NCBI GenBank assembly: GCA_030280995.1
Contig: JASXTE010000002.1
Coordinates: 41,438,683-41,502,682, forward strand
Direction of reading: 5' to 3'
DNA: 64,000 nt
Source: Hemileia vastatrix
Lineage: Eukaryota > Basidiomycota > Pucciniomycetes > Pucciniales > Zaghouaniaceae
Position numbers and translations under genes: made by a program. Shown piece after piece: positions 7,746 to 46,929 of the stretch (its first letter is position 1; every line of letters starts with the position of its first letter). The notes beneath the pieces were generated by a model. That model saw only the letters and a list, made by a program, of their open reading frames with translations, ran no database searches and was not told the origin of the DNA.

Positions 7746-7749
7746 TTTC

Positions 7750-17292: not shown

Positions 17293-17434
17293 GATGTGTG
17301 GTGAGAAAAGATGATGAAAAGGGATAGGAGGAAATTTTAGTCAGTGATGGGTAGATGATGAAGTGAAAGTGGAAATTCAGCAGGTTGGCTGTAGAGGTGT
17401 GCTGCATGAAATTGGCTGCATCCATTTTATGCGA

Positions 17435-17660: not shown

Positions 17661-17668
17661 GGAAAAGT

Positions 17669-17707
17669 CTCCACGGGAAATCAGGGGGTGAACTGCTAGC
17701 AGTTCCC
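17669..17707 (+). repeat. Left terminal inverted repeat of the giant element
   Basis: About 39 bp pairing with 46891-46929. It contains GGGGGTG followed by the perfect 16-base palindrome GAACTGCTAGCAGTTC. This CAC / G-run / GCTAGC-palindrome layout is shared with the ~250-bp MITEs. Confidence 0.85.
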
Positions 17708-18438
17708 TCTTTTTGAAACTTTCAGGAGGAGGTTGGGAAATCGTTGAGGAAATTTTTTGAAAGAATTAGGAAACTGTTTTTAAATTATATGAAAAAATTT
17801 TGAAAAAAAAGTTGGCCCTAAATTGAGCCTCAATTTATCCCTTCTTGAGCAGAGCTTTGGATTTAAGTTGAGCATCAGTTGGAACGAACTTGAGCAATGG
17901 TTGAGCCACAACACTTAACATACCATAATATTCAATTTTATATATAGATCCATTTAATGTTGGGAGGTCAGGTTTGATATAAGTAGAAATATCTTAAATG
18001 ACACATAGTATACTAGTTCTAGAATATTATTTCAATTATCAATTTTATTTCCGCAAATATATAAAAAAGAATACTATTTAAGTCCTTTTTAAAAACTTTA
18101 TTAATAAAAATATAACTCTGTAAAAATATTTGCACATAATTTTAAATTTTCTAGACAAAAGTTGATATTGAGCCCTTATCAATAGAAATTTCTCATTGTT
18201 CCTTGGAATAAAAAAGTATAAGACAATGTTCAAAAAATTTAATGTAGGAGAAAAAATATTTATATATTTTATAAGGGGAAAAAATAGTAATGTATTTTTT
18301 AAAAAAATTACACTATTAAAGAAACTAATTTTAATATATTGGCACAAAACTTAGGCTCTAAAATAATGCACTTTTTTTAATTATTTATCTGTATTTAGTT
18401 ATTATTAAAATGTGAGTCAACATTAATTATTAACATAC
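17708..18438. other. Left subterminal region, non-coding
   Basis: No gene. Five TTGAGC motifs occur within 17823-17910 (followed by CT, AG, AT, AA, CA). The right end has the same motif inverted (GCTCAA at about 46705-46720), as does the related element at 60238 onward. In CACTA elements such subterminal repeats bind the transposase; that role here is inference. The rest is AT-rich. Confidence 0.6.
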
Positions 18439-18567
18439 ATGAAAAATTCAATTTTGAATACTCATCCAATATTATATATATTCTCTACTTTATTCTCTTT
18501 CAAAACTTTTCTCTCACCCTCTCTTTCTTTAAACTACCACCATCACCATAAAATTCATTTAATTAAA

Positions 18568-20997
18568 ATGTCAAATTTAAGATGCATTGGACAATTCTAT
18601 TTAAATTTTAAACCTATTTTTCCAAAAGAAAGGTCTGTATTTGATGAAGTATCCACTCCAGTTATTATGCAACGAGGAAGATCTTTAGTTCCTGTTTTTG
18701 GATTATTCAAAGAAGGAGAAGAAAAACCTATTGGTGATCTTTCTAATGAACAGAGCAGCCAAATTGGACAACTACTTGGAGAAATTGGATCTGGATCTCA
18801 AATTTTAACTGAGGAAAGGGCTTTAAATCCCCAAATACCTTATTATTTTTGCTCTTACTTGGTTCTCCTATTAAACAGGCAGTATAGAATTTGTGGCCTC
18901 CTTTTTTGTTTGACTGATTTTATTATTCAGGCTAAAGAAGAATTTCTAAATGCTCAAATTGATTTGACACCGATTCCACACTACAATCCAACCATCTTCT
19001 TCAATATTCCTCATTCTTGTATTCACATAACTTCTAAAATTTCTGGGACAAGGGATAATCAAATGGAAAATCTATCTATACGTGGTATGAAAACAACTCT
19101 GAAAACGCATCAGATTCAAGCTATCAATTTTATGATAGACAATGAAAATAACTTATCCGAAAAGTTAGAAAACCTGTGGAGGCATGCAGACAACAGCTGG
19201 CTGAGAGTGGGTTTTAATAATTATTATGAACAATTTCTTGAAGAAAAGTTATCCTCTGCAAGAATTGGTTCAGTTCTAGCTGATGATATGGGCTTGGGAA
19301 AGACCCTCTCAACTCTTAGCCTAATTACTGCAACTCAAAGTGAAGCCAGACGATTCCAACTCTTGGGTGGTGGACAAGAGAAAGATAGGACATCAGCAAC
19401 TCTCATCATTTGCCCACTTGCAACATTATCAAACTGGGTCAATGAAATAAGAATTCACTTTGAAGATAATGCACTACCTTTCAAGGTTCTTTATGGGAAG
19501 GATTCAAAGAAAATTAATTTTGAGGAGCTTCAGAACCAACAAGTTGTTTTGACTACCTATGAGACAGCAAGTCCATCTTCTTCAAAGAAAACTCCTCAAC
19601 CTATTCCGCCAGTAACTCATAGACTCATTTGGTACAGAATAGTTTTAGATGAGGCTCAGTAAGCATTCATTTGAATTACTAATAATTTTGAACATAATAT
19701 TATAAAAGCTGATGAAATGTTTAACATAATTTAAAAGTTTAATCAAGAATCCCCAGTCGCACAAGAATCAGAATATATTGGCCTTGGAGGCTGAGTATCG
19801 ACTATGCTTGACAGGGACACCACTTCAGAACCGGACAACTGATCTTCAAAGATTTATATCATTCCTCAGAATCGAAAGATGGCAAGAAAACTGGTTGTGG
19901 ATTAATTTTCTTATGAATGGCTTAAACAGAGGAAGCTCTAGCTCAATAAAATCGATAAATACTCTCATGAATGTCATATGCCTGCGGAGGACAAAAGAAG
20001 CAATCTTATCACTTCCTCAAAGAATTGAGCAAGGAATATCTGTAGAATTATCAGAACCTTGGCACTTAAAACTTACGAAGCTTCAAGAACGTTTTTCTGA
20101 GTATTATGGGCCTTCTTGAAACACCAACCTCCCTTGGGACTCAGCTGAGTTTCTCCGAGAACTGTCAATTTTATGGCAATTTTGTAACCACCCTGTCTAC
20201 GAAAACCCAGATCAACCTCCAACATTTCCTTTCACATGGAAAAATTCAGCAAAGATTATACATCTAATCAGTCTTTTAGAAATTTTCTTAAGGGGAGAAT
20301 GGGGGATAATTTGTCCCAAGGCTGTTATATTATCAGAATATGCGGAGTTTTTGGAAATGTAAGGAATTCTATTAATTATCTCAATAACTTATTTTTAGCT
20401 TAAAAAACATTTCAATATTCTATCCATTGAAACAGTATAAAAAAGGCTTTAGATGACCATGGAATTAGCTACACAGAGCTTGTAGGAAAGTTGAGCATGA
20501 AAAAAAGGGATGAAAATGTGGACAAATTCAAAAATGATGAAAGATGTCAAGTTTTGCTTGGTACAATCAAGGCTGCAGGAGTTGGAATAGACTTGAGGTG
20601 TGCACAAAATGTATATATAATGGTAAGTCAAAGAGTCTTATATTGAAATAGAAAAGGTTGAAAAGAGAATTTGTTTAAAATATTGAAACAGGAGCCTAAT
20701 TGGAATCCAGCAGTTGAACAGCAAGCAGTTGATCGTCTGTATAGAATGGGCCAACAAAATGAAGTTCATGTACTCAAGTATTTTGTTAGAAGAAGTATTG
20801 AATTCAGCATTTATAAGATACAAAGAAAAAAGATTGAGCTATCAATGTATGTGAAATTTTCTTTATATAAAGTTGCATCATAGCTAAAAATATTTATCTG
20901 TTCTAATTTTTTAAGGTTAAGTGTCCCAAACATTGGAAACGAAGAATATGAGATTGCTAGATTATTGATTAGGGAATTCATCAATAACTCACATTAG
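18568..20997 (+). pseudogene. SNF2-family ATPase/helicase, five exons, one nonsense codon
   Basis: Exons 18568-19658, 19738-20358, 20436-20622, 20692-20846, 20916-20997; the spliced length is exactly 712 codons. Motif I is ADDMGLGKT (residues 238-246). Motif II DEAH (361-364) is recreated only by splicing: exon 1 ends GAGGCTCA and exon 2 supplies T. Motif III is LTGTPLQN, motif V is in GVGIDL, motif VI is QQAVDRLYRMGQ (643-654). The layout resembles the Rad5/Rad16/HLTF branch, but no RING finger is seen; the first ~180 residues are unrecognised. Such proteins remodel or translocate on chromatin in the nucleus. ATG 18568 is preferred over in-frame ATG 18439, because a TATA-like stretch and a CT-rich leader (18470-18530) lie between them. 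The only lesion is TGA at 20117-20119. Its 3' end overlaps the convergent gene by 17 bases. Confidence 0.85.
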
Positions 20998-22098
20998 AAT
21001 TTGAAATTTGTTTAAGTATGTAGGAAATGTTTATTGGGGCTTGACAATTAAGAAGTCTTAATTGTTGAGGATTAAGAGAAGCGAGATATAATAAAGAATA
21101 GCAGTCACTTGGCAAACCCCTGGGGACTGGAAAAGAATTAAAGTGAGTCTTGATTGAGGATACCAAATTTAATCTATCATATAATGCCAAGTTCTTAAGT
21201 ATTTCTCCTGAATAAGAGGAAGATTCTCGGATTTGAATGTGTTTCTGTTCAAGATTTCGTGCAAGTCTTGAGAATTCTTCAGATCTACATGGCAATAAAA
21301 TCCGCTTAAAAGAACCTTCATCATCAATTTCGGTGTCTGAGCAACATTTGACGTTTTTGAAAAGATTCTCATAGGTTTCACCACTTGGAAGTTGTTTAAG
21401 AAGGTGAGTTCTGTTAAAAGAATTCTGAAAAAGATTGTCAAATTTATATAAGCTTGTGTAAAAAAAAAGATAAAAATATTAGTTCTTACTTTCGTTTTTA
21501 ATTTATTTTTATACTTTCTTATTTTAACTATTTCACAGAAACTATCAGAATCTTTTCCGAGTCGTAATTTATCAGCATAACCTATAAACCAGCGGTGAAG
21601 AACACCTATTTGATTTAGGTAGGAAATATGAGTAGAGTCCATTGAATAAGAAACCAAATAATTATTTTCCAAAGCTTTATCCTAGTGCTTAATGATAATT
21701 TTTGCCAAAACTTGATTCCACTCGTGAAACCAATCAAGATTCCAAGCAAACTTTTTTCCAGGAAAGTTTCATTGAAGAAGAAAGTGGATAAAAGCATTGT
21801 GGAATATAGAAGGGATTTGTTCAGAAACACGGTAATTTCGTTCAGGATATGGCAAATTAATATCAATGTTGAGAGAGCTTATATTGAGCAATGAAAACCT
21901 ATGTAGTTGCTCTTCGGTGGGGTTCAGCTTCCATTCATTAGACTGAGGTGAAATATTCAAAAGCACACGACAGAAATTGTAAATAGACCTGCAAAAATGA
22001 GAAGTTGATCAAGGGAGTATCTCATTGAATCTTTTATTTAGTACACGGGTATTAGGAGGTATTTTTCCCTGAGGAAAATAAGAACTAGAGCTCATCAT
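20981..22098 (-). pseudogene. Unknown transposon-borne gene, convergent with the SNF2 gene
   Basis: ATG at 22098 (MMSSSSYFPQGK). Exon 1 is 22098-21490, then a 65-nt phase-0 intron (21425-21489, GTAAGA...CAG), then exon 2 is 21424-20981: 351 codons in a consistent frame. Three in-frame stops interrupt it: TGA in ILP-stop-STSHF, TGA in FLLQ-stop-NFPGKK, and TAG in IIKH-stop-DKALEN. No frameshift is needed. Visible features: aromatic-rich FPGKKFAWNLDWFHEWNQ, and a Leu-rich C-terminus (LYLASLNPQQLRLLNC). I do not recognise a family. Its divergent promoter region (22099-23173) is shared with the transposase gene. Confidence 0.6.
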
Positions 22099-23173
22099 AT
22101 ACGTTATGAAAAGCAAAATGAACAAAAATATAAAATTTTGAAAGGATATGGCAACAAAAACACTACTATAATAAATTTTTTATTTTGAAAATAGGTAATA
22201 ATGAAGAGTTGAGTGGACGGACAGATGAGCTTTCTCATGAATATCTTTCTCTATAAAATATGGATATCTATGTATGTTCATAATTAATTCAAAAGGAAAT
22301 AACTCAGCTGTAATAGAAAATTATTGCATGATAAACGGGTAAAAATATAATGGAGAATCATTTTGATTTTCCAACTTATTTTGATAATATTTTAATGCAA
22401 ATAATGACCTTATTTGAGCTTGTTGATTGTGCTGACAAACTTATTTTAAAAATTAAGATTAACAACTTATTAGTATGTATATATTTTATTTACCAAGATT
22501 ACTCGGAAACCATACCAATTTTTCAGAGTTTGGAATTAGCAACTTAATGTAAAAATTCTGTTTTATGGATTCTGGAAGCTTTACTTTGATTACCTCTTAG
22601 ATTTGAAAATTTTAAAATAATATATTTTGTTGAAAAAATATTTATTTTTCAAACTGTAATTCTATATTGTGAAAAATAAATATTATAAATTTTTTTATAT
22701 CTTATAGTGATTATTAGTGAAAACCTTTCTGTTACTTGGCAGAATTTTATTAATTCAGGTGATTTCAGAAAAAAAAAACGGCAACACTTAAATAACTTTA
22801 TTATTATAAATTAAATGGTATTATTTTGATTCAAGTTATATCATAGTTTCTCCTATATTTAAAAATGCGATCAATTTATATTCTCTTATAGTATTATGCT
22901 TTGTGCAAAATAAGCTGTTTGATAAACATGTATGCAACATTGTAAAATGTAGCGAGTCTGAAACATTTTTCTGATGCACAGTATGGATACCTACTTAATG
23001 CATGGTTGATCTGCATGAAAAAAACATTCAAAGAAATCCATGGTAACCAACTTTTTGATAAACTTCTTGAGACGTAAAAATTAGCTTATTTTAGTAAGTG
23101 CTTTACAATAAATAAATAGTTTTTTCAATTGCTACCATCCAGTAACATATTTCTTATATCCAGAAGTCTTAAA
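22099..23173. other. Divergent intergenic region
   Basis: Lies between the minus-strand unknown gene and the plus-strand transposase. AT-rich; no convincing ORF, although a 65-codon open stretch exists at 22350-22547. It presumably holds both promoters; I see no distinctive motif. Confidence 0.5.
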
Positions 23174-26100
23174 ATGCCACCATTTTTTGCATTTGTAAAT
23201 GTAAAGAGCTTGGATGTTCATCAAGAAAGCATCAGACCTCATTGGGAAGCTTTGAAGTTGGTGTAGCTTTCAAAACATCTCAGTCATACTCCAAACATGA
23301 AGAGGAAAGAAATCGCAAAGCACAGATGGTTGGTACATCCAGCGCTTCACCTAACTTAGGATCCAACATCCCAGATCTTGTAAGACATCAATATTTTTTA
23401 AATAAAGAGAAGTTATGTTTCAATTAATCTCTATTTTTTTCTTTGCTTAGGGGAAGCCTGTTTTGGAAACAATTCAATCTCTACCACGGTCAAACAATTT
23501 GAATTTGGAAGAGCCTTATAGCCAAAAGATAATGTGGCAAGCAGCAAAACTTTATCTTATCCATCATTTAAGCAAAGAAGGTTCTGCTGAATTTTTGCAT
23601 GATGAAGTCAACAAACTCAAACTTCTTAGTGACATAGGCAAACTAGATACTAGCAGAATCATCATCCTGATTCCCCTTTCTATAGAGACAGTTTTTAGTC
23701 AATTGCAACTCAATCCATTATTTGTCACCAAGACATGCTGTGCTCAGTGCTTTGCTCTTTATGAGTATATCCCCAAACACCAAACATCAATCTTATCTTG
23801 TACTCAACCTTTTTATTCATCCTCAAAGGGCTATTTGAAAGATTTAGGACAGAGAGAAGAAACTGTCAATTGTGATGAAAATTTGTATTTGGCTAAGTAC
23901 AAACAAGAAGAAGCAATCTACGATCCTCGTAAAACATTTCATCAAAACAGTTTGGTTGAATGGCTTTCAGGAAAGTTTAAACTAATCAAATTCGAGACGC
24001 TGATTGAGAAAAAAAATGATTTTCTAGAAAACATGGAAAGGGATTTCATGAAAGATGTATATGATGGTTTTGTATGGAAAAATTTTCCAGATATTTCTAC
24101 AACTCGAAATAGAAGTGTCAATGGATATACAAAAACCCAAGGTAATTTAATTTTTAGTTTATATGTTGACTGGTTTAGGCCGGGTGGCAATTGTATTGGA
24201 GGTCATAAGAAATCTGTGGGTAATATCTTGTTGGTGTGTATGAACTTGCCTACAGAAGATCGATACAAAACCAAAAATCTATTTTTGTATGCTATTATTC
24301 CCGGTCCAACTGAGCCAACGAGTGAACAAATAAATCATCTTCTGAAGCCTCTTGTCGATGAACTAAAGACTCTATGGGATGGCATATTTATTGAAAAACA
24401 CCTCACTATCCACAGGGCCGAAAAATAAGGGCTGCATTATTCTCTTTAATAGGAGACATTCCAGTGATGCGAAAGATTGCTGGTTTTGTAAGTCACTCAG
24501 CCACTAAGTTCTGCTCTGTCTTTCATATTTCAAAAGATGAAATTGGTGAGCATCAAGTCGAAAAATTTTCCTTACGTACTCATGAGGATCATATGCACTG
24601 GGCAGAGAAGTGGAAAAAGTGCCAGTCACATTGGGAGTGGGTATCTATTGTTAGGAGTCATGAGGTTCGATGGAGCGAGCTAAATAACCTTGTATATTGG
24701 CAACCTACGGAATATTGCTCAATTGACTTGATGCATTCACACATGCTTGGAAATCTTAAAGATCACAGTCTAACTTTTTTTCTAATACAAAATGCCGCAA
24801 TCAACCTAGAAAAAAAGCTGACAAAGGAAAAAAATTGGCATATAAGAAGAGAAGATGATGATGGACGTTCTGATATATTTCTAAATAAGCAATATAAAAA
24901 ACGTAGAAGCAGCTTAATCAGCACTGATGCCGATAATATTGAACCAGTGGGGCGGCAAAAAAGACAATGATATACAAGTACAATGAGACGGTCACAAACA
25001 TATCTTAGAATGGATAGTGGAGGAGCTGAATTGGAAGGATCAAGCAGCCGGACAAAGTCATCAAGTTCTGAACATCACTTTCAAACCTTAGAGTTTGGCT
25101 CCGAACATGCTTCTGAAAGTGGAAGTCGAAATTCAACCTATAACTTAAGGCAAAAAAGTATCAGTATATCCGAAAGTGAAAAATCTAATTCATCCGTTGA
25201 GACTATTAGAAGTAAGGAAGATAAAAAGAGGGGCAAAGAGAAAGAAAGTGAAAGAACTAAGAATCCACGATTGTCAGCCACTGAGCTAGAGGCAGTGTGG
25301 AATGTGATAGAGCAAACAAAAAAACCTTCCTGGATTTCATGAGTGCCAAAACAAGTAGGATCTAAAAAGTCAGGTTCCCTCAAAGCTGCGGAGTGGCATG
25401 TAATTTATACTGTTTACTTTCCTTTGTCACTTATCCCCCTTTGGGTAGAAAAATTAAATCAAGCCGAGACATCCGTGACGTCAGACCACAAACCTAGAGA
25501 ATATTATCTTCTCAAATCACTCACCACTTAAAGTTCAATTACCAACTTTTTGACTTTAAAAAATGTGTCTGCTGATAAAGTTGATGAATTAAAACAACTT
25601 GTATTGGAGTATTGTAACTGCTTGGAAGAAGGTTGGAAAAATATCAGCTTTAAGCCAAATCTTCATTTCACTCAACATTTTCCAGAAATGATTAAACGTT
25701 TTGGTCCACCCGTAGGTATGGCTACTTGGGCTGCTGAAAGATTTAATGGTATATTATTGGAAATTCCAAACAATCATCATCCAGGTATTTAGTTTGGTAT
25801 TTGGGCGCTTAAAAATGCAAATGAGCTAATTTATTTTTATTGAACATAGAAGAAATACCACGGACCATGCTCAAGCAATGGCATCGGAAGTCTAGGGTAT
25901 TGGAACTAGGTGAAGCTGAAGATGATGCTCAGTATGGATCTAATATTAAAAAAATTGAGTAAAATACAAAAAAAAGACATTTCCATTTAACTGAGGCATT
26001 ATTTACAAAATGGGTAAGGGCACGCTTAAGAAAAGAGACATCTAAACGGGATTTGTTACCATCAGAGAAGGTAGGAGACAGGGTAGTTGAAAATATAGCA

Positions 26101-26467
26101 AGCATATTGGTCCATGGAAAGCGTTATAGGACTCATGAACAGAATCCTGGGAATTCTACCATTGAATTCTACTTTGGAAAAGATAGTCAGTTTGGGCATA
26201 TTGATCAGCTTTTTAGTTCAAAGGACGATAATAAACAAGTCTATCTAATCGTTAGTCCATTTAAAGAGCTTATACCAGAAGATACAAAAAAGGATCCCTA
26301 TGAGGAGTTTCCACAAGTGCATTGCCGTTTAGTAAGAGTAGAAAAAGCGACACAAAGTGTGGTAAATCAAGATTCAATTATTGGACATGCCGCCACTTTA
26401 CAGCATTAAAGGGGAATGTTTGGAATAAAGTACAATGTTATCACTGCTGTTGGACTTCAGACACTAG
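23174..26467 (+). pseudogene. tnp2/Plavaka-like transposase (CACTA class), decayed
   Basis: The first exon (ATG 23174) has a Cys-rich start (ICKCKELGC) that needs a one-base correction in a T-run. An intron at about 23379-23459 leads into the main body from 23460. Diagnostic stretches of the fungal tnp2/Plavaka family are present in order: CCAQCFALYEY, FSLYVDWFRPGGN (Asp near 24168), GIIPGP-type AIIPGPTEPTSEQINHLLKP, then after a one-base frame change near 24420 RKIAGFVSHSATKFCS, RWSELNNLVYW and the hallmark SIDLMHSHMLGN. Further on come HFTQHFPEMIKRFGPP and AERFNG, an intron (about 25789-25849), and a C-terminus with SPFKEL and DPYEEFPQVHCRL. In-frame stops are at 24968, 25340, 25529, 25959-region and 26407. 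It would cut and join the CAC-type ends of this element and its MITEs. Not functional now. Confidence 0.85.
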
Positions 26468-26959
26468 TAAGTAAAAAATTAAACAACATGGACATTTTAT
26501 TTTTGTTAATATGGTCGAAATTATTTAGGATTGGTAAGAATTTGGAGGATTTGGAAAGTTTGTAATAGATCTTTGGAACAGCTAGATGTAAGATTAATAA
26601 ATAAAACTTTTTGAGATGTTGCCTAAATGTTTAAGAAAACAATAACAAGGGCATTCTTTACGGTTTAGAAACCCTGCTATTAATGAGTGACATTTTATTG
26701 TAAATGTAATTTCAACTAAAAGGAATTCAATGTACTATACAAAGTCTACCTATACTTGAAAAATATTATAAATAGTTCAGAACCAGGGTTGAAAAATCTA
26801 AGGACCATATTTTTCAAGCCAATAAAACTGAGTTTTCAACTAATTTTTTCGCTTGAATATTTTATTCATTAAACTCACAATTAAAATGTATAACTAATTT
26901 CTCTTTAATATTATCTTGTCTATATTCTGAAAGTTAATATTTTTTTTATAAAGCACAGA
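26468..26959. other. Intergenic, promoter of the next gene
   Basis: AT-rich; no ORF. A TATAAAG sequence lies at about 26948, only a dozen bases before the ATG at 26960, so it may be leader rather than the TATA box. Confidence 0.4.
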
Positions 26960-28649
26960 ATGTCTAATACTGGTGATGCCATGCAGGTTGATCCTCCATT
27001 AGAAAGTAATGTTGGAGTGCAAAATAATCCTCCCCCTCAAAATCCTAGAATGCCTCCATCAGGTCCTGCTCCCCCTGAAAGACCAAGTGAAAATCCAGGT
27101 AAACCCTAACCTCCTCCTCAGTCTTCATCAGATGTCCAAATTTGATCAAATGATTGCTCTTTTAATATCACAAATACAGATGGTTGATCTGCACCTGGTA
27201 ATTTTCAGCAGGAAGCTTAAAGTGTAGGTAATGATTGGGCTAGTATGTTGTTGAATCAGTTTCTTGGAAGCGGTGGGGGATCCACTTCTACTAACCCAGC
27301 CGCAAGTACCAGTGGACCTGGTGAGTAAACTTTTTCAACATGCTTTTATGTTTTAAAATAGGTTTACCAATTTTTATTTTCAAAAATTTGCAGTTAATCC
27401 CTCTCTTATAATTCGAGCTACTGATCAGCGCAGAATACTTGATGCTGAGTCACTTCAAAATGACTGAAAATTGCGAATGGTTAGAAGCATAGTTACGAGG
27501 TGTGATGTACCAAGGAGCTCAGATTCTATTAACCCAAATATCTATCACTTTTTGAAGTTCTGTCTTGGTGGACCCATTAATGTATCTGAGTTTCCTATAG
27601 GCCCAACAAATGAAGAACTTACATATTGGAAAAATTGGCATGATTACAAGCTATTGACGATTGAAACAGCATTAAAACAGGTTCAAAACACACCACAGGC
27701 AACTTCAGCTGATGATCGTCAATTTATTTTAACAAATACTGCTATATTCTTACGTTCCAAAATTCATCTACCAACTTTTATTTCAACACCTGAGCCCCGA
27801 GGACTAAAGGGAGGAGCTGCTGTACCGATCTCTGTAAAACAGCATTTGGAACGAGAGCTTCAAGAGAAAGGATTTCGTCGACTCACTTTTGATTGGAACT
27901 GTCAAAATTTTTCTGAGTCACTATGGAATCAAGTAATGGGGAGTGTAGTATCAGACCATTGTACTAAGTGGCTCTCAACATTGAAAAATATTGATTCAGC
28001 AAAACTCAGGTTTACACCAATCATCATCGAGCAATGGGTGGTCAACAAGGGAAAGGAGATTCGAAAGATGGCTGGTCAAAACTGTGAGGTGATTGAGGCA
28101 AGTAGAAAGGAAAAGAGATCAAGAGCACAGATAAAGAGTTATCAAACAAAGGTATTTATTCAAAGCATAATAATTAAAGAAAGTCTATTACTAATTTGAT
28201 TTGATTTTAGATTTCAAAAAACCGCTACGACATTGCAAGAAAAAAGTGCTTTGATCAGCCAGGCTTTGTAGCACTTTTTCATGATACAAGTCTCATGTCT
28301 GATTTAGAAGAAGCCCCACCAACCAGAAGAGAATTGTCCTAAACGAGTAGTTCCTGGATGGAGAAATACAAAACTTGATGAAATTTTAGATAAAATGGAC
28401 AACTTGACTAAAAAGACGGCCCATTCAAATGTTGAAAAGGCTTCAATGAAGAAACTTTATGATCGCTCAACTAAAAAGACAGCTTCAACAGATGGTATCT
28501 TGAATGTGCCCAAATTTCTGCCAAAAAACTGCTATTCACCTGGATATTTAGTAAATTTGTTGGTTAATGAGAGGAAGTTACTTTATGTTCGAGAAGATAT
28601 AGATTTTGCCAAAGTTAATGAAGCACTAGATCGAGCAGCAGCACCTTAA
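26960..28649 (+). pseudogene. Second transposon gene, unknown, Pro-rich N-terminus
   Basis: ATG 26960 (MSNTGDAMQVDPP) opens a Pro/Asn/Gly-rich N-terminus. One frame can be followed through an intron at about 27322-27393 into a ~240-residue conserved-looking body (27394-28151; PNIYHFLKFCLGGPINVSEF, TAIFLRSKIHLPTF, HLERELQEKGFRRL), a second intron (about 28152-28210), and after one frame change near 28340 a C-terminus (PGWRNTKLDEILDKMDNL, LPKNCYSPGYL). Five stops in the first third (KP-stop, QI-stop, DG-stop, EA-stop, ND-stop) all fit CAA or CGA with C changed to T. I do not recognise a named family. Its position behind the transposase suggests the accessory protein (TnpA-like) of the element. 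Confidence 0.6.
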
Positions 28650-35685: not shown

Positions 35686-36283
35686 TCCTACTTCATGTAA
35701 ATATATACTTTATCCTATTGCTACATTATTTTGTGTAACTCAAATTATTTATTTATGTAAGATTTATTACCAAATCTGAATAAAGATGCTTAAACTATCA
35801 ATAAATATTATTGTATAAATTTCTTACACCTTTTTGCTATTCAGTAAATATTATTGAAATAATCATAACTCAAAATCATGATGGATCAAAAATTTGAAGA
35901 AAAATTAAGAATACATTATAAGTCATTTTTCTCATAACACTATATATTTCTTTAAGATGGCAATACATCTTAGCATTTGTCGCAAATTTTAAGATAATAA
36001 TTACAAAAAATTGAAACAGTTTTCTATCAATTCTTTTCAACATGTTAAAAAGTTAAAAATATTAAGTGTAATGAATTTTTGCTCACAATTCATCAAAGCA
36101 TTTTCTTAAGTAGACTTTTCTAAATCTAATTTCTATAATTTCTAGGTGCATAATTATCTTAATTATACTAAGTATTCTCTATGAAAAACTCCTGGAAATA
36201 ATATTCAATTCATTTAATAATAGTAACATATATATGTACCATGATAAAATAATATCTAGACATTTAAATAATGAGAAGCCATC
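35686..36283. other. AT-rich spacer before repeat copy 2
   Basis: No gene seen. The homology with copy 1 begins at 36284. Confidence 0.5.
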
Positions 36284-37367
36284 ATATTGGTATGGAATCA
36301 TATTAAAGTGTCTTTGAAAAACTAGTTAAATTTAAAAAATATCTTTTTATCAGTGTCAATTATTTTGAAAAACAAAATTTACTCTACATTTTGATGATCT
36401 ATAATTTAGCTTGCTGTATTTTGATTCATATTTTATATTGATTATTTTTTACACTTACAGATTCATGTATAGATATCAAATTTTGTTCAATAATTTGGTA
36501 AAAAAGATATTTAATTCTTTCTATGAAAGCAAAAAAATAAAAGAAAGCAACTAGGGTACTCCTTATTAAGAACTTAAAAATATTATTTCTATAAATATTA
36601 AAACAAACCCTTTTTAGATTTCCATCCTTCTTGTTCATCCTTAAATGTCAATAATAAGTTATTGAAATATTATTTTTCAAGTAGAATTTCATATGAATCA
36701 AATTCTACTTACATCTACCTGAATAGATCAAGGTCAACAAAAATATATCTACAATCTTTTTCTAGGATTTTAAGATTCATTCAACTCCAATAAAAAAGAA
36801 ATATTCATCCCAAACTCTAAAAATTAATTCAATGAATAAATATTCAAACACTTCAAAATAAATTTCAATTTGATTGCGTTATATTTATCTTTAAATATAT
36901 TGAGGTCCACTCTCTCACAAAAGTAAAAGCCCTTTAATAATTATTAATATTTTATTATAATATAATAAAATTTACTTAAAAATGATGTAGTAGTTTCTAT
37001 TTTACATACCTTGCTTTATGAATTTTTAAAAAAAAATTCAATTAGATATATAGAAATATCATCATATAATTCAGCTTTTTGAACTCTGAACCTTAATTAA
37101 AGATAGATGATAAAGGCTAAGTCAAGATCTACAAGGAAATTTAAATTCATATTAATTAAATATTCCTCTTCTACAAGGCAATTTTTAAAATTAGAATTAA
37201 TTTTTATTGGAGATCTAAATTGATTGATAGATTCATTATTCTCAATATATCTCATTTCCTTTTATTGATTATTTCAATTCTACTTTTTCAGTTATATACT
37301 TCAATAAAATATAATTATATGATGAAAAATATTCAATTTATCAAAAAATAAAATCACAAGTCACACT

Positions 37368-37627
37368 CACTACGCAATATAGGGGGTGGACTTGCTAGCA
37401 AGTCCCCAACCTGAACTCAGACTGAACTCAGATGGAACTCAGACTGAACTCATACTGAACTCATACTGAACTCTACTTGAAGACCCACAAAAACTGTTAT
37501 GCTGAGTGGTGTTCATCCCTGATTGTATGGTTCCTTTGTCAATAGCTCAATGTGTGTTCAATCTGTGGTGAATTTGAGTCCAAGGTTGCGGACTTGCTAA
37601 CAAGTCCGCCCCCCGTATCGCGCGGTG
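37368..37627 (+). mobile_element. CACTA-like MITE copy C
   Basis: 260 bp, ends CACTACGCAATATAGGGGG and CCCCCGTATCGCGCGGTG, flanked by ACT (37365-37367; 37628-37630). The empty site in copy 1 (about 3990) reads AACACTAGTGTA. The left TIR contains the perfect palindrome GGACTTGCTAGCAAGTCC. Confidence 0.9.
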
Positions 37628-38372
37628 ACTAGTGTACAAATTTCAGTATATTTAAGATTGAGTAATGCCACTAAATTAATTAAAGTTAGATATGAAAGCA
37701 AATAATGAATGACTCAAAGAAAAAAATTAATATTTAATTTTCCTTTAATTTATTTTTTATTTTTATTTTTACTTAAATAAAAATAAAATAATACATGGTT
37801 TTACTTTATTTATTAATAAGTAAAAACTTATTGCAAAAATTAGCAAATTTTTAATATTTTTAAAAATAATATTAATAGTACAGATCTATTTATGTTGATG
37901 CATATGATCTTTTAGGAAGGATTTGTAAGATATTGTTTATTTTTAGTTTCCATTTGCAATAATTAAGCAAGTTACAAAGCTATATTTTGTTTCTTATATT
38001 ATATTTTATTATATTTTATTTTACTTGTAGCAATGATAATTTTTTATTGTAATATGATTTTTCAATTTTTACATCCATTTTTTTGATACTTTTATTGTTT
38101 TAGGTTTTTCACCAGATTATAAATAATCATCAGCTTCATAAAAAGTTTTTATAGACATGTGTGTAAATAAATCATTCTACCACTAAACTAAAACTATACC
38201 TGTACAATAAAATCACATTTTTACCTATCACTACTTAATGGTCTTTTACTTTTTTTATTAATATGTAAATCAGAATCATTTTCTGTATTTAATTTTTCAA
38301 TATCTTTAGTAGCATTAAATATATAGTGATTCACTAACTTTCTTTTTTTTTTGTTAAATCAGTCTTTTCATT

Positions 38373-39511
38373 TTACTTAGAAAGTTTCATCATAAGAAAA
38401 TTACATCTTTCTAACTCTTCATTTATATTTAAGTACTCAGAAATATCTATTTCAAACTCTTGGAGTTTTTTAAATGTATTGAAAAGTCTTGTACTAACTT
38501 GAATAGAAGAGCCAAGGCAAGTGAATCCACCAATCTCATACCATTGTGAAGTTAAATGTTTAAGAAGGTTTGCTGGCCATAGAGTCGCTGTGATGCCATT
38601 AGTGGCCTCCATGTCTACTTTGCAAGCTATTTCTGGAAAATGAAGCTCTCCGCCTTTTTGACGTGTTTGATTTGAGTCATAAGATTGATGAAGAGAATTT
38701 TTCTCAGTGTCTTTAGGTATGAAAAGTCCAAATGTATACTCGCTACGGTCTGAGTCACAGTGAGAGCTATTCGAAAACCCATTTCCATTTGAGCCTGTTG
38801 TCCAAGTAACATTGCCAGCAAATGGTTCAATTTCTTCATTGTTAAAATTTTCTCCAAACCCAGGAATCCCAATCTTTTGACAGAGTTTTACTGCTTCTTG
38901 ATACTTAACATTAGATATATTTTGATAAAAAAATTTAAAGAATAATTCTATTCGCTTCATGCAACAAACATACTCTTCCAAACATAAGGGCTTAGAAGCA
39001 TATTTACCTATAAAAGTAATTGAAATAATAATAGATTAAAACTATTTATAAATAAAACTATATAATACTTACGAATTAATAGAGACTTTTTCCTATCTAA
39101 ACACCAACCACCAACAAACATATTACCAAATCCACCACCATTTTTATGAGCTTTATTTTGCAAAAGTCGATGTTCACAATAAGAAAAGTCTTTGATGCAC
39201 TGAATTGTTGCTTCAAGCATGTTTAATCGAATGAGATCTCCAAAAGAAAATGCTTTCACTATAACACTTGGAATTGAGGAGCGGATCGGATGGAAAATAT
39301 AACAGCTAGAATTTGAAATCAAATACCGTTCTGGATTAACTAAATTTTTTACAAAACTCCTAGAAAAATATTTTGCCCTCTTTCCATCTGTCTCAACACC
39401 ATAATTTTCAAGCATAAGTAATGCATTCTCGATGTTTTTCACATTCTTTTTGTTTGATTTTTTTCCTCGGTGGTGATTTTTCTTTATAAACAAACTTTGT
39501 GAAGCCTGCAT
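38373..39511 (-). CDS. Tet-like 2OG-Fe(II) oxygenase, apparently intact, two exons
   Basis: Exon 1 39511-39073, intron 39008-39072 (GTAAGT...ATAG), exon 2 39007-38373: exactly 358 codons with no stop, so 357 residues. The N-terminus is Lys/Asn-rich (residues 8-26). The C-terminal half shows a double-stranded beta-helix pattern: SSHCDSDRSEYTFGLFIP, where HxD is the likely iron ligand pair; KGGELHFPE; NGITATLWPANLLKHLTS with the distal His; then GGFTCLGSSIQVSTRL. This order matches the Tet-like 2OG-Fe(II) oxygenases found in large numbers in basidiomycetes, related to TET/JBP enzymes that oxidise 5-methylcytosine. The actual substrate cannot be read from sequence. The decayed paralogue lies at 5243-6382. 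Sits inside repeat copy 2 within the giant element. Confidence 0.65.
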
Positions 39512-39765
39512 CTTGTAGTGTAGTAAATAAGAAATTAATTTAATTCAAAAATAAATAAATAAAAGTGCAAAATAATGCAATGGTTAAAAATAAGGCCTCC
39601 AAAAATAATCATTATATTCTTAATAATAAATAAAAAATCATATCCAACATGCATGTAGAAAACATCAGTATTAGCTGCATTTAAAATATTAATCAAGTAT
39701 TTCGAATTAAAGCTTCATTTTATTGCTTACAAGTATAGTATTCTGCCATATGCATTTGGCACACG

Positions 39766-41015
39766 AGATTCAACTATACCCTAAACATAAACAATTAAAT
39801 GTGAAGCTTAAATCCAATGTCCAATTATTATGATAAATACAGCAATAATACATAAGTATCTGTTGATGCTTTATTTAATTTTTCTCCATATATCAATAAT
39901 ATATCAAACCGCCAGAAATCCATAATTTATAATGTTGAAAGGTATAGTTTCCTTAAACAAGAATCAACTATACCTCTACCATTAATAGAATTACAGGAGG
40001 CCAATACAATAAATTATTGATATGTAGAAAAAAATTGATCACATACACATGTGGATACTATGATTTTTTATTTTATTTAATTATTTAATATATAATGATT
40101 GAGAATAATAAAAAGTTTAAAAATTAAATAGTGAAAAAAAGATATTCTTACTTGAAATTTAAAAAAAATCCTTTGGTAGGAGTTGATTGATTGATAAATG
40201 GACAACTAATCTGTTAATTATAATTTTTAGGAATAGATTATTGTAGAAAAATAAGTATCATTTTTATTGAATGAAAAAAATAAAAAGAGAAAGACAAACC
40301 AAAATAAAATTTGGATGCTAACCAAAAATTAGCTTTTTGATGATACTATGACAAGTTAGAGATCAAGCTGCCAAGAGTTAAAAACAATCATCAGTTCTAA
40401 TGTTTTTTTAAAGAGATTAAGAAGGAGAGTAAAGTACTAAAAATCTAAGTTAGTAATCTGTAAACAAGTTACTTTGGTGGCAAACCTAATGATTGAGAAA
40501 AATGGACTCCCTAAAAGTTGTACTTATATTTAAAGTGAAATTAATATTTTTACTTAAGAAACAAGTATAAGGGACAAACCAGAATAAAAAACTATTAAGT
40601 GAAACAGATGGAATGCTAATAATTATAATAACCTGTCTCTTCTAAGTTGAAGGAGAGAAGTAGAAAATTTGCCACTCGGATGAAAATTCGCTTACAGTTT
40701 TGCGTATAGAAACATGCAAGTTACTGAAGCCGGTTGCATGGCATGCAGTGACTTGCATAAGGCATATATGCAACAGGTTTTTACACAGCAATATATTGTA
40801 CAAATGATGACTAAACATTTTCACATGCTTTTAATTAAAACTTACATATTGTTTTTACAGCTTATTTTTATAGGGTTTCACAAAGTATAATTCGAGGAAC
40901 CAAAGCCTCGGATAGTTTCACACGGATGCAATTAATATTTACATTCACTTATTTTACAAATTCAATCCACTTATCCATATTATTTGTTCACATAAGGTTG
41001 GAAAACTAACCTTCA
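39766..41015. other. Non-coding part of repeat copy 2, includes the retrotransposon's empty site
   Basis: At about 39760-39775 the sequence TTTGGCACACGAGATTCAAC is continuous, whereas in copy 1 it is split by the LTR retrotransposon (left flank ending 6638, right flank starting 49051 ACGAGACTCAAC). At about 40390 it has the empty site of MITE E (ACAATCATCAGTTC). Otherwise AT-rich, no genes. Confidence 0.75.
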
Positions 41016-41276
41016 CACTACGCAATATAGGGGGTGGACTTGCTAGAAAGTCCTCAACCTGAACTCAGATGGAACTCAGATGGAACTCAGACTGAACTCA
41101 GACTGAACCCATACTGAACTCTACTTGAACACCCACCTAAAACTGTTCTGCTGAGTGGTGTTCATCCCTGATTGTATGGTTCCTTTATCAATAGCTCAAT
41201 GTGTGTTCAATCTATGGTGAGTTTGGGTCCAAGGTTGCGGACTTGCTAGCAAGTCCGCCCCCCATATTGTGTGGTG
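41016..41276 (+). mobile_element. CACTA-like MITE copy D
   Basis: 261 bp, ends CACTACGCAATATAGGGGG and CCCCCCATATTGTGTGGTG, flanked by TCA (41013-41015; 41277-41279). The uninterrupted site in copy 1 near 51745 (ACCTTAAGCTGTTATGG) has no element. Confidence 0.88.
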
Positions 41277-41589
41277 TCAGATGTTATGGACCAATTTTTT
41301 ATCACTTATTATTTTTTGCCACTAAGTTGACATTTGGCTACAAAAGAGTTAACAAGCAAGTATGCTTTTCTGAAAAACAATCTACACACAAAATCTTTAT
41401 TCTTATATTTCAAACATTTTAAAACTGGGCATTTAAGTTTTGGCATTTAAAAATATCCAATACCTCTTTTTTTGGCTTTGATTTTTTATTATGCACATAT
41501 ACATTTCACACTGTCAAAAAACTAATGGCAAATGGCATGTAAAAGAGTAGCGCAAATTTAAATGTATATCAACTTTAATATTATTTCTT

Positions 41590-42245
41590 ATTAATTCAAA
41601 CCATCCAGGCTCGCCCTGACTGGTAGTTTATTTTTATAGTAGCCAATGTTACTTTAAGAAACATTGGCTTCTCAAATCTCACCATCAAGCCTCCCAGCCA
41701 GTGGTATCTGGCTGGGAGATGCGAAAATCAGTTTGAAACCAAATTCCCTTGTAGCGACTTTGGTTGCTTTAAAAAAAAACTTGCAGCCAGTTTATTACTG
41801 GCTGCAAGTCAATAATATAAAAAAAAAAGCGAGCAAAGTTGCTGCATGCAACTTCGCTCGCTTTTAAACTCACAATCTTGCAGGCAGTTTTAAGATGAAA
41901 AAAAAGTTATTGCAACCAAATTCACTTGTAGCCACTTTGGTTGCTTTAAAAAAAGACTTGCAGCCAGTTTATTACTGGTTGCAAGTCAATAATAAAAAAA
42001 AAGCAAGCGAAGTTGCTGCATGCAACTTCGCTCGCTTTTAAACTCACAATCTTGCAGGCAGTAATAAACTGCCTGCAAGATGTATTATAAAATTGGCCAA
42101 AGCCACTTTTGGTGGCTTTGGCCATTTTTTTTTTATTTTTTTATTAAACGTTGCCAGCTTAAAGCTGGCAGCAATTTATTTTTTATATTTCAATCCCGAT
42201 CCACTTCCTGTGGCTCGGGTTCTTTTTTTTTATGTAATTATAAAT
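41590..42245. repeat. Cluster of about nine different hairpins
   Basis: Consecutive stem-loops with unrelated stems: GCCAATGTT/AACATTGGC (41643-41669), CTCCCAGCCAG/CTGGCTGGGAG (41692-41719), CTTGCAGCCAG/CTGGCTGCAAG (about 41780), AAGCGAG...CTCGCTT around GTTGCTGCATGCAAC (about 41829), repeats of the last two (about 41957 and 42003), CTTGCAGGCAG/CTGCCTGCAAG (about 42052), GGCCAAAGCCAC/GTGGCTTTGGCC (42095-42123), GCCAGCTTAAAGCTGGC (42153-42169). Runs of A or T separate them. No protein coding is plausible. The same module is present as three tandem copies at 52060-53460 in copy 1. Confidence 0.9.
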
Positions 42246-42501
42246 TACTACAAGCTAGGCTTCATCTTTCTGGTAGTGTTATCTGACATTTGAAAGCTTG
42301 AAAAAAACATTATATGAAATAAAAAAAGCATATTCTTTGATATATTAAGAATTATGAGTGGTAAAGGATTGATGAAGGGATTAATGGCTCAAAAATAAAA
42401 TTGGCCATTGCTGATAAGGAGAGTTCTAGAACAATAGAGATTATCTATGAAAATTATATGGGATGGAGTACATTAGGGCATCTCAAACTTGATCAAATAC
42501 G

Positions 42502-45500
42502 CCACATAAACACACCACAAAAAAATTACCAAACACACCATCAGAAAATGAAATACACCTGCCATGGACAGGTGTATTTTGATGGTGTGTTTCGCCTCAA
42601 ACAAACCTTCTTTTGGTAAAAAAAGCCATCAAAACACTTTTCTCCTTCATCTTGATTAGTCAGCAATAGGTACAGACAAGCCATCTCTTTAGATTCTTTT
42701 CCGCCTAATTCTTAAGGGCTTATTATTCAACATGTGAAAAACATGACTTCCCACCACTTAAGCAGCCACTTCATCATACACTCACCCTTAGTCTTAATCA
42801 CCATTCACTAAAATTCCTCTTTCAGTCCATTGTAAACTAGAAATAACTGCTACCACTCTAGCCCTGGATCTATTGGTTAACTCAGATACCAACTCCAATG
42901 CTGAAATTGACTTGGCTTACATGTGTGACATGATGAAGAATCACTAATTATATTCCAGAACACTTTCCATACAACACCAACCACAATTTAACCTTGAGGT
43001 TCTTTAAAGCATTCCTTAAATTAGCTTTAAACAGATATTTTGCACAACCTTGCCTCGATTTCTCAGTTACTTGAACTGATAAAATATCACTCAATTTTCA
43101 GAAATGATTCTTGTTGTTCATAAAGAGATCCTCCTATTCAAATCTGTGTTGCACTTTGTCATTTTAGTTCAAATTGAAATGGTGGCACATTTACCCATCT
43201 TGAAAACCTCTTCCAGATCAGAGATGGAAATAAATATTTTGATTGTAAAAAAATACTTTGAATCTCTCTTATATACATTGAATGCTTCTACTCTTGCTAT
43301 TTTTTAGGATTCAAGTTAATTAAATGTTTTGTATTTAAATTATAAGTAATGTTTTTCTCCATATCTACTTGACTAAAATTCATTCTGGATTTCTATTAAT
43401 AATTTGGTTAAATATGGTTTTTCAACAGCTTCATTAATCAACACTTATGCACAAGATACATAAATTAACAAATTTTATTTTTCTAAATCTAGAAATTTGG
43501 CAATACCCTCCCCTGAATTTCACTATATTAGGGGGTGGTGATTGCCATTTTTTTCATGTCAAAAAATTTTTTTATGTCTGAAAAAAAAATGGCAATACCT
43601 CATCCTGAATTTTACTGTGGGAGGGGGTGGAGATTGCCATTTTTTTTCATGTCAAAAAATATTCATGTAAGAAAAAAAAATTTACAATACCTCCCCCTGC
43701 AACTTACTGTGGGAGGGGGTAAAGATTACCGAATTTTCATTTTAATTTCATAAATTCTTATATAAATCAATAAAAAAATATAATCAGCCAAGTAAAAGTA
43801 ATGGGATTCACAATTCCACCTGCTAATGATTTCAGATGTGACCAAAGCCAAATAAATCATATGACAAGCAATTTATTGACAATTCATCCATTCAATAAAA
43901 ATAAATAATTAAATGAACAAATTTATACAGCAGCAAGGCTCAATTGCACAAACGTTTTATTTGATTGATTATATTTAATAATTGATAATTTAAAAATTTA
44001 TGAAATAAAAATAAAAAAATGGAAAATCTTCTAATTACCCTATTTGGAACCCCTCCTTAAGGATTTACTATAAGTAGGGCCCTTCCCCCTTGCTTTACTT
44101 ACCTGGTTTATCAGACTTTGGTTGATCTGGAATGAAAAACAAAAATGAGTAAGTGCTTCACAAGATTCCAAAAAAATGAGAAAATTTTTTACAAGATATC
44201 AAACCAGGAGTTTCCTTGGTATTTTGATGATTATTACTTGGATTTTTGATTGATGATTATGCTGAGAAGAGTTCCAAATAGATTTGATGATACCATCTCC
44301 TGAAAAAAATCCAAAACATAAACAAATCAGGGAAAAAAATGCTTTATAAAGAAGAAAAATTGAGGAAACAAATGATAAAAAACAGTTGAGGAATTGACAT
44401 ACCTTGGGAGTGGTACAATGAAAAGTATCAGAAAAAACATGCATATTACAGAATATCAAAATTCAAAAATTTAAATTAGTTTACATAAAAAGACTCAACT
44501 TTAAAAGTAGATATCTCAGAAATTTCTGAGCCAAAATTGATTATGCTTTATGGAAATGAAATTCATGCCTATAGAGAACCTGTAATCAAAATAATGTGGG
44601 ATTTGAATGAGCTAAAATTCATCAAATGTTAATATTCATCTTCATAAAAAAATTACAAAATAGGAAGGACTCATCCAAAACTAATATTTAGCTGATCAAA
44701 TCAGAGCCAAAAGACTGAAGTATTATTTGAAATAGATTGCATAAGCCCTATATGCATATTATGCAACATTGAACTTAAAAAATGTAAATTAGTCTATGAA
44801 ACAAGATTCAACTTTGGAAGAAGTTATCTGAGCAACCACTAGACCAAATTCAACACCATTTTCTGGAAATAAAATAAATGATTCTTTAGATTCTTCCAAC
44901 AAAAGAATATTTCATTTAAAAAACCCTAACCCTATTTCTGACCTTTTATTTTTGACTTAAAAGAAAATCAAAAAAGGGTTATAAAAATTAAAGTCAGGTA
45001 TTATCAATGGTCTAAAAAGATCTATTTTAGCTACCAATGTTATTTATAAGTATTATATTTGTTCCAGAGTAAGACCTACTTGAGAAGATTAAAATAAAGT
45101 TGATAAAAGTTTGAGCCAAGTAAATAATAAATATCTCATTAACCAGTGAGCCAAATCAGATGTTGCTTGGTGGATAAGAGAGCTAGGCTTCTGTAGAACC
45201 TTCTTAAAAGTGGAAATGTGATTTGAGAAAACAAAAAAAGAAATAGAAAAAAAAAAAAAAAATTCAGAAAAAGAACTTCAGTTAAAATTGAAAAAAATAT
45301 GGTGGGAGGATGACTTACCTGATGAGATGTCTTCAAAGATGTAAAAGGACCAGATAATAGTTCAGGAAGTGATGGATAAAAAAATAGAAGAAAAGTTAAG
45401 GAAGTGAGAGAAGATGAATAAAAGGATATGAAAGATCATTGAAAAACAGAAAGAATGAAAAATTATGCAATTTCTGAAATATCCAACTTCATGTTGAGAT

Positions 45501-45947
45501 GATTAACCAAAATGAATGAGGAAGGGAAAAATTATGCTTTCAGTGAAAATTCAAAATAAAGGTTAATATGCAAAAATAAAATAAAACCAAGTGGAAAGTA
45601 CATGCAACTTGATCATTTTGAGAGCATGAAAAAAGGATTTAAAAGCGTTGTATTGAAAATTTTGTAGTGTTCTTGGCATGATGACTGAGTTTTGAGGATA
45701 TAAATTTGTTCAGGAATTGTTGATAAAGAAAGTAATGAAAAGCTCAAAATTTACTGGGGCACCATGTGTAAAAATTTGTTTCAAAAAAGTGGGTTGGGAA
45801 AGATGTGATGTGTGGTGAATTGGGAGGATCTTTAGATTGGTTGCCTGTGCTGTGGTTGGAAAATTTTCACTAAAGTAGGACATATTTGACCCCATGTTTA
45901 TAATCTCATGTACCAAATCAGCCATGTTTCATGGTGTGTTTATGTGG
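42502..45947. mobile_element. 3.4-kb element with 16-bp TIRs, possibly PIF/Harbinger-like (copy in repeat 2)
   Basis: Perfect 16-base inverted ends CCACATAAACACACCA (42502-42517) and TGGTGTGTTTATGTGG (45932-45947). Just inside the left end is a compound hairpin (about 42533-42596) nested from AAACACACCATC and AATACACCTG with their complements. A decayed transposase-like ORF lies at about 42770-43310. On the minus strand, an ATG at 45925 close to the right end and conserved splice donors (CAGGTAAGT at about 45310 and 44105) hint at a second, multi-exon gene that I cannot assemble. No clear target duplication: the left flanks of both copies match, but the right flanks differ. Confidence 0.6.
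43495..43735. repeat. Three tandem ~75-base hairpin units
   Basis: Each unit runs from GGCAATACC(T)CCCC to GGGGGTGG(A)GATTGCC, i.e. an imperfect stem of about 18 bases, with TTTTTTCATGTCAAAAAAT between units. Copy 1 has two units at about 55150-55305. Confidence 0.75.
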
Positions 45948-46890
45948 TGGTTTTCAAATGAAATCCACCAGGCATATTTGTTCAAGTTTAAGACCCCCTA
46001 TTAAAAAGTAGATGGGTAGAGGAGGAGGAAGAGATCCTTAAGAAGATGAATAAAATATTACTTTCAAAATTTTTTACAGATAAATATTAAATTGAAATAA
46101 ATTTTGTAAATATTTTTGTCATTATATTGGTTTCCACTTTTAAATGCAGTTACTATTTCACATGTACTCATACCAAAACTTGGGAAAGTGATTTATATAA
46201 GCATTAAATATTTAAAAAGGAAAACTTGCATATTAATTTCCATAAAAACCTTTCATGTTATACACTTTAAGGACTATTTTTATTTTTATTTAAATATAAA
46301 TATTTCTTTTAGTTGATTTACTGAAGATTTTATTTTCGATAGCCTGTAGGTATTATATTTTTGGTAAAATTTAAAAAATTATACAAAATTTAGTTTTGCA
46401 AAGACTTAACAGATTAGAAGTGAGAAGTGACTATAATCTTTTTAAATTTTGAAAATAAGAATGGCATTAGTTATTTCAATTCCTATAGTTATTAATATTT
46501 GTGATCAAAAAATTTGCTAAATTTATTTATTGTTACAATTATGTAGTAAAAGATATTATTATTGTAAATTAATTTTACTTTCATAATTTTATGGTTTATC
46601 TTTTGAATGCAAAGTAATGATTAGGTATGTTAAAGAATAATTTTCTTCCTCTAAATTGATAAAAATATTGTATATTCAAAAGCTTATGTTGGATCAATGT
46701 GTGCTCAAAGTGTGCTCAATGAAGGATAAAATCATTGTTATAGTTGATCAACTTATGCATAACTTGAGATCAGTTGAGGTTCATTTTTGGACAAATCTGA
46801 GAATAAATGTAAATCTAACTCTAATTTGCTTATGTTTATAAAGTATTCATAAACCTGGCATAATTAAGGGACAATCTAAATTTCAGGAGA
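45948..46890. other. Right subterminal region of the giant element
   Basis: No gene. The last ~230 bases before the right TIR are about 90% identical, in reverse complement, to 60277-60500, defining a family end beyond the TIR itself. GCTCAA motifs (46705-46720) mirror the TTGAGC cluster at the left end. Confidence 0.6.
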
Positions 46891-46929
46891 CGGGATTGCT
46901 AGCAATTCACCCCTAGATTTCCCGTGGTG
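46891..46929 (-). repeat. Right terminal inverted repeat of the giant element
   Basis: Pairs with 17669-17707; contains ATTGCTAGCAAT, a perfect 12-base palindrome. Followed by the AGT target duplication. Confidence 0.85.

Follow-up and report, generated by a model that had tools for sequence, protein, structure and literature searches.

Tet-carrying EnSpm transposons have been described in Puccinia striiformis (Kojima 2025, PMC12730594). These transposons have CAC..GTG ends, 3-bp target site duplications and a Plavaka-like transposase, and related EnSpm families exist in other rusts, including Austropuccinia psidii. That account advances the idea that Tet helps the transposons to escape methylation-based silencing, and cites the fungal CcTET as having been shown to oxidise 5-methylcytosine. 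Here we describe element A, a CACTA-like insertion of about 29 kb that carries both a Tet-like oxygenase gene and a SNF2-family ATPase gene. It spans positions 17669–46929 of a 64,000-nucleotide stretch of Hemileia vastatrix DNA (hereafter called the "window"; C338:41438683–41502682 in an assembly of 747.6 Mb and 791 contigs; window GC content, 33%), and positions without a contig name refer to the window. Element A is a member of one large, high-copy and recently amplified CACTA/EnSpm family, with a length of ~27–30 kb, CAC..GTG ends and a 3-bp duplication.

How does element A compare with the described systems? As in the TET+ EnSpm transposons of P. striiformis (PMC12730594), its family combines this end type with the 3-bp duplication, a similarity to Plavaka and a TET/JBP gene inside the element. 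Two features set it apart: element A carries SNF2, a name with 0 occurrences in the main text of PMC12730594, and it is 29 kb long, a size that does not appear in the available part of the article. A preliminary description of the locus, made from the sequence alone, had known of no described family with this gene set. That claim no longer stands for the Tet part, as Tet on EnSpm/CACTA elements in a rust is already published (2025, PMC12730594) and element A fits that kind. It seems to stand for SNF2, which is absent from that main text; a literature search, by which subscription papers were mostly not covered, yielded one unrelated review and no paper on a transposon-borne SNF2 gene. What seems to be new is SNF2 together with Tet, an element length of 29 kb and a copy number now documented to be high.

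The other known systems are more distant. The Plavaka elements (PF18759), whose TET+ families are PlavakaB of Agaricales, resemble element A in the CMCT-type transposase and the TET cargo, and the transposase of element A has a sub-threshold match to Plavaka (9e-5). However, their ends read TGT..ACA or CATCA..TGATG (PMC12730594), in contrast to the CAC..GTG ends of the family of element A. The KDZ (Dileera, Kyakuja, Zisupton) transposons with TET/JBP are, like element A, fungal DNA transposons carrying a Tet-like gene, but the same source gives them 7–8-bp duplications and another transposase, while element A has a 3-bp duplication and tnp2. The VANDAL transposons with VANC in Arabidopsis, which Kojima cites as well, are similar in working only, as elements that encode their own anti-silencing protein, whereas element A belongs to another transposon class. 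To our knowledge, VANDAL transposons carry neither SNF2 nor Tet. The first description of Tet with KDZ transposons is reportedly that of Iyer et al. in 2014.

Element A is a single CACTA-like insertion

The boundaries of element A, and the long terminal repeat (LTR) retrotransposon in which it resides, are as follows.

17669–17706, plus strand: left terminal inverted repeat, from the alignment with the right end
46892–46929, minus strand: right terminal inverted repeat, from the alignment with the left end
17666–17668: left copy of the target site duplication AGT, based on the uninterrupted retrotransposon copy
46930–46932: right copy of the target site duplication AGT, on the same basis
6637–17668, plus strand: left half of the host LTR retrotransposon, with an LTR at 6637–7745
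46930–49050, plus strand: right half of the host LTR retrotransposon, with an LTR at 47957–49050

The terminal 38 bases of element A match as inverted repeats at 32 of 38 positions. Inverted repeats are abundant within element A, and 3 of 200,000 random segment pairs taken from it also reached 32 matches; the match alone is therefore not decisive, and the main support for the ends comes from the empty site and the family evidence. The empty site is seen in a relative of the host retrotransposon that lies uninterrupted at −30769 to −17712 in window coordinates (~31–18 kb left of the window) and aligns to 6638–17668 (93%) and then directly to 46930–49056 (95%). Its junction contains one AGT, while element A is flanked by two. 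The single AGT and the continuous alignment thereby constitute the empty-site evidence for a single insertion of element A, with the 3-bp target site duplication of CACTA/EnSpm elements. The right end reads GTG, as in the CAC..GTG termini of this type, and the left end reads CTC in copy A, which is the only mismatch between the inverted repeats among their first 14 bases. Element A is a real single CACTA-like insertion: the inverted repeats, the AGT duplication and the two retrotransposon halves that the preliminary description had put forward all hold, and the empty site joins them. We regard its anatomy, as described here, as close to certain.

Gene content of element A

The following genes and frames were found inside element A.

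18427–20997, plus strand: SNF2-family ATPase gene with introns, likely start at 18568, broken in A (Pfam)
23173–25789, plus strand: CACTA/Plavaka-like transposase gene, with several frame breaks in A (Pfam)
~26960–28649, plus strand: gene X, with several exons, encoding a protein of unknown family, downstream of the transposase; also in copy B (see below)
~33340–35676, plus strand: gene Y, encoding an acidic protein, with several exons and at least one in-frame stop in A (open frames)
38373–39511, minus strand: Tet-like 2-oxoglutarate-Fe(II) oxygenase gene, with two exons at 39511–39073 and 39007–38373 (Pfam)
20984–21681, minus strand: two overlapping open frames, a doubtful gene (open frames)

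The Pfam matches of the SNF2 gene span 18427–20643 on the plus strand and include both lobes, with PF00176 over two exons (6e-27 for lobe 1 and 2e-18 for the continuation in the second exon) and Helicase_C PF00271 (2e-8). The DEAH box is present only across the inferred intron.

The transposase gene matches Transposase_21/tnp2, as expected for a CACTA/EnSpm element, at 23451–24425 (2e-9; 37.3 bits, as compared to the cut-off of 28.6), and the sub-threshold Plavaka match lies directly after this region. No KDZ transposase was matched among the frames scanned in Pfam, where Transposase_21 matched instead. By eye, catalytic-looking D (24168), D (24455) and E (25736) can be recognised in the broken frames, and the likely place of the C(2)C motif reads C-x-x-F in copy A.

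The Tet-like gene matches PF20515 on the minus strand (5e-21). Its frame is open over 357 amino acids, with HxD at residues 229–231 and H297 downstream, and element A thus contains a Tet-like gene with the HxD..H arrangement inside the element, as do the TET+ EnSpm transposons of rusts. A PDB search with one Tet exon gave no match. Genes X and Y have no Pfam match above the cut-off, and the minus-strand frames at 20984–21681 likewise have no family match above it. Consistently with the preliminary description, a tnp2-class transposase, a SNF2 ATPase and a Tet-like oxygenase are present in the element. It had counted at least six genes, of which five (SNF2, transposase, X, Y and Tet) are supported, while the sixth, at 20984–21681, is doubtful.

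The genes recur in one order in a high-copy family

The genome was searched with five DNA queries (left end, SNF2, transposase, Tet and right end), and the best 40 of 562–2073 first-look candidates were listed for each, with element A itself as one row in each of the five lists. All 40 listed SNF2 places and all 40 listed Tet places are full length, with identities of 97–100% and 96–100%, respectively. The transposase list contains 41 rows; the 187-base second piece (88%) of one copy was left out, and the 40 rows used have identities of 95–100%, and in one of these the match extends over 1314 of the 1517 bases. The 40 rows in each of the two end lists lie within 96–100% identity. Their coverage is complete, save that 39 left-end rows lack the two initial bases and one right-end row lacks the initial base of its query. 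Apart from element A itself, every listed left-end row (39 of 39) begins at query base 3, and all 40 right-end rows reach the last base. These uniform end points indicate that the termini of element A are the ends of a repeat family.

The 200 places from the five lists were grouped wherever they shared a contig and a strand and were separated by gaps of up to 40 kb, which gave 105 same-strand clusters. There were 52 clusters with a single part, as best-40 lists would produce, and 53 (element A included) with at least two parts; 10 clusters have at least four parts and 3 have all five. Neither order violations nor opposite-strand pairs within 40 kb occur among the listed places, and in 200 trials of random placement the multi-part clusters averaged 1.0 and never exceeded 6. 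The 53 ordered, same-strand, multi-part clusters, as compared to about one by chance, point to one high-copy family. Both ends are listed for seven copies, among them A, of which five span 27.3–29.6 kb and two span ~38 kb. The co-occurrence between the inverted repeats, in the same order, that the preliminary description had envisaged is thus found for the listed left end, SNF2, transposase, Tet and right end, which share one order and strand. The outcomes that it had named as adverse, namely copies of this end family lacking the genes or genes lying mainly outside such ends, did not occur within the best-40 lists.

The association of SNF2 with Tet is also evident within these lists. A listed Tet place lies within 60 kb and on the same strand for 19 of the 40 SNF2 copies (expected, 0.26). 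In all five SNF2 copies that were sampled, three of which are also in the Tet list, the Tet neighbourhood is present at the expected distance (four inside the gene and one beside it), with 96.5–98.8% identity. A stop-free version of the short, stop-bearing SNF2 stretch of A has 79 exact places in the genome (control, 0). With these places added, there are 109 distinct SNF2 places; SNF2 is then found within 40 kb of 31 of the 40 listed left ends and upstream, within 60 kb, of 27 of the 40 listed Tet places. Another listed part accompanies 56 of the 109 within 60 kb on the same strand.

Before this addition, 17 of the 40 listed left ends were followed directly by SNF2, and the two parts adjoin in 17 of the 17 clusters listing both. 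Such a position would suit a SNF2 protein that takes part in transposition itself and assists the transposase, either on chromatin or during strand exchange, in a Rad54- or Rad5-like manner, with Tet alone directed against silencing. The closest solved relatives of the SNF2 protein by sequence do include a Rad54-family helicase and RAD5, beside other SNF2-type proteins, all of them weak matches (5e-6 to 1e-3). However, we know of no CACTA element that needs a SNF2 protein, and we consider this explanation improbable.

An older copy carries the same genes

Parts of a second copy, copy B, lie on both sides of element A in the window.

2917–6635, plus strand: copy B piece, matching A 36284–39764, with a broken Tet gene on the minus strand
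49051–57526, plus strand: copy B piece, matching A 39763–45947

The preliminary description had noted a repeat around the Tet-like gene, and the block 36284–45947 of A indeed recurs in these two pieces. Sequence comparison identifies this "repeat" as an older copy of the same element, which was split by retrotransposons, and element A is inserted in one of the retrotransposons that broke it up. Left of the window, copy B matches A 34309–36288, 26131–29634, 22759–24908 and 22334–22760, in order and split by LTR-retrotransposon sequence. The transposase, X, Y (from 34309 onward) and Tet are thus common to B and A in the same order, which indicates that the gene set is not a one-off. Copy B is ~13% diverged from A over the three genes compared (A 23380–24910, 26900–28700 and 34300–36290). 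Its Tet gene is broken, and the aspartate of HxD is lost. Over the transposase, the comparison of B with A gives 33 G-to-A changes against 20 in reverse, and 25 C-to-T changes against 14 in reverse. This excess in B is as expected if methylated cytosines had decayed there.

The block 36284–45947 recurs at 2917–57526 with unlike flanks, and this could be read as a separate 9.7-kb element with Tet that was inserted in A, making A an accidental composite. We found no convincing inverted repeats at its borders in A or B, however, and copy B continues leftward past the inserted stretch with Y, X and the transposase. Moreover, Tet lies ~20 kb from SNF2 in many copies. A nested transposon of Tet's own was rejected because of the missing inverted repeats at 36284/45947 and the continuation of copy B, and we give the composite origin of A almost no likelihood.

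A possible anti-silencing function of Tet and SNF2

What might the two genes do for the family? SNF2 ATPases move nucleosomes or strip bound proteins. In the mechanism proposed here, the Tet-like enzyme from working copies would oxidise 5-methylcytosine on the element, and the SNF2 ATPase would move nucleosomes or other bound proteins, whereby the transposase and Tet could reach methylated, packed DNA. The two proteins would open and demethylate the element DNA in trans, for all copies, and the pair would serve as an anti-silencing kit, through which the family remains expressed and able to move. We lean slightly toward such a kit of Tet and SNF2, carried by the family, as the best explanation overall, and we give the mechanism itself an even chance. 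A further-reaching form of the idea is a two-part self-protection, in which SNF2 would open the element's own chromatin and Tet would remove or rewrite its own methylation, thereby enabling the spread of very many near-identical 29-kb copies where methylated cytosines mutate away. This form is tentative, and we are inclined to doubt it.

Several observations weigh against the anti-silencing kit. In copy A, the SNF2 gene contains an in-frame stop and an apparent frame change, and the transposase gene contains a frame change and several stops. The single other SNF2 copy that was read (L055; 98% identical) has the stop and the frame change of A plus a stop of its own. Among the 40 listed SNF2 copies, 10 are among the 79 stop-free places, and A and L055 were read among the other 30. 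On the same strand and within 60 kb, 53 of the 109 SNF2 places have no other listed part; the best-40 lists can explain these lone places, though some of them may be SNF2 genes outside such elements. The SNF2 gene of copy B was not reached within 40 kb and a 7-kb piece leftward, which hold further retrotransposon sequence. With regard to Tet, the stop codon of A is absent from two other copies (L051 and L052) and from copy B, and the family protein may thus extend slightly further. In four sampled 400-base stretches reaching into the Tet gene of other copies, 32 of 37 coding substitutions relative to A are nonsynonymous or stop-altering, a raw count in which shared substitutions are counted more than once. 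These stretches also contain two premature stops and one internal frame break, and the sampled copies give no indication that Tet was under selection during the recent burst. As its SNF2 and transposase genes are broken, though Tet is open, copy A is probably dead, and it may have been moved by proteins from another copy.

CACTA elements pick up other genes, and SNF2 and Tet might have been captured and carried as passengers, without helping the element. The sampled Tet stretches without a purifying pattern, the broken SNF2 and transposase genes of A and the broken SNF2 gene of L055 are all consistent with passengers, and the published account (PMC12730594) includes passive TET gene transfer between transposons. 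Less easily reconciled with passengers are the gene order kept in the 53 multi-part clusters from the best-40 lists and in the old, 13%-diverged copy B (though SNF2 was not seen there), the 79 places without the SNF2 stop of A, and the Tet frame that is still open in A. Overall, we judge a passenger status of the two genes to be fairly unlikely.

Amplification in trans, by some other intact family or copy at a time when the genes of most copies were already dead, overlaps with the passenger explanation. It would account for the finding that the listed copies are 97–100% alike although stops are present in the SNF2 and Tet copies that were sampled. The 79 places without the SNF2 stop argue against it, as do the transposase copies: 30 of the 39 non-self listed transposase rows carry net one base more than A, which would fit a frame change private to A. 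Amplification in trans therefore appears unlikely to us. Passengers, a helper role in transposition and a mostly dead family moved in trans are not distinguished by the data at hand; these explanations overlap, and the odds therefore do not sum to one.

If the pair works as proposed, the family would represent a transposon carrying both a remodeler and a demethylase-type enzyme, and would offer a high-copy natural system for testing how transposons beat DNA methylation in fungi. It would also bear on why some such fungal genomes swell to hundreds of megabases with very many Tet-like genes. Since the ends, the gene order and many near-identical copies are mapped, the family is readily testable.

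Neighbouring elements and other Tet-like and SNF2 genes

The window contains further elements, among them miniature inverted-repeat transposable elements (MITEs).

37368–37627: 260-bp CACTA-type MITE with the duplication ACT; copies B and L053 both lack it
41016–41276: another member of this MITE family, which copy B lacks
4234–4499, 4793–5044 and 50871–51121: further MITEs of the family
29381–32027: palindromic repeat array in element A, with units of ~137, 236–239 and 475 bases
60237–64000, minus strand: gene-poor relative with similar ends, continuing to +69515 outside the window

The five 260-bp MITEs start with CACTA, end with GTG and contain a near-palindromic core, TTGCTAGCAA, near their ends. 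Comparison of A with B reveals a clean empty site and a 3-bp duplication for four of them, and a mutated empty site for the fifth. CACTA-type movement was clearly active in the genome. The stretch 37368–41276 was considered as an LTR element around Tet and was rejected, because the 260-bp repeats at either end are both MITEs of one family with CACTA termini, and B lacks each of them at the corresponding position.

Three gene-poor elements of ~9–10 kb have ends like those of A: the one at 60237 to +69515, and one each on contigs C194 and C631. In each of them, one frame of at least 100 amino acids was found, which is of low complexity and alike in all three. The preliminary description had asked about copies lacking the genes, and these elements with related ends do exist; because their ends are only 73% (left) and 83–85% (right) like those of A, they look like relatives and not like copies of the family. 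The repeat arrays at 29381–32027 in A and at 61047–63997 in the gene-poor element at the right share stretches of ~45–50 bases that are up to 98% alike. At C194:30791870 (L023, L039) and C631:24959619 (L010, L045), further Tet-like genes are situated immediately beyond gene-poor elements with A-like ends. These two loci were rejected as family copies, since their Tet lies outside the ~10-kb gene-poor elements. On C194, a Harbinger-like frame, recognised by eye, is close to the Tet-like gene, as in the published PHISTA elements.

The genome also contains a second SNF2 repeat family, which scores better than the SNF2 gene of A. It accounts for 93 of the listed first-exon rows, once the top 16 rows, two rows from a single C531 gene and the rows of the second exon are set aside, and consists mostly of open frames of ~608–630 amino acids with near-identical scores. 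These rows were rejected as the SNF2 of A, being a different repeat family. A genome search for PF20515 placed all 150 scored Tet-like places over the cut-off, these being the best 150 of 10849 first-look candidates. At least 150 Tet-like matches, a genome of 748 Mb and a GC content of 33% are in keeping with a rust fungus. The second SNF2 family is rarely near these places (1 of 93 within 60 kb), and many of the 150 have open frames of 300–400 amino acids.

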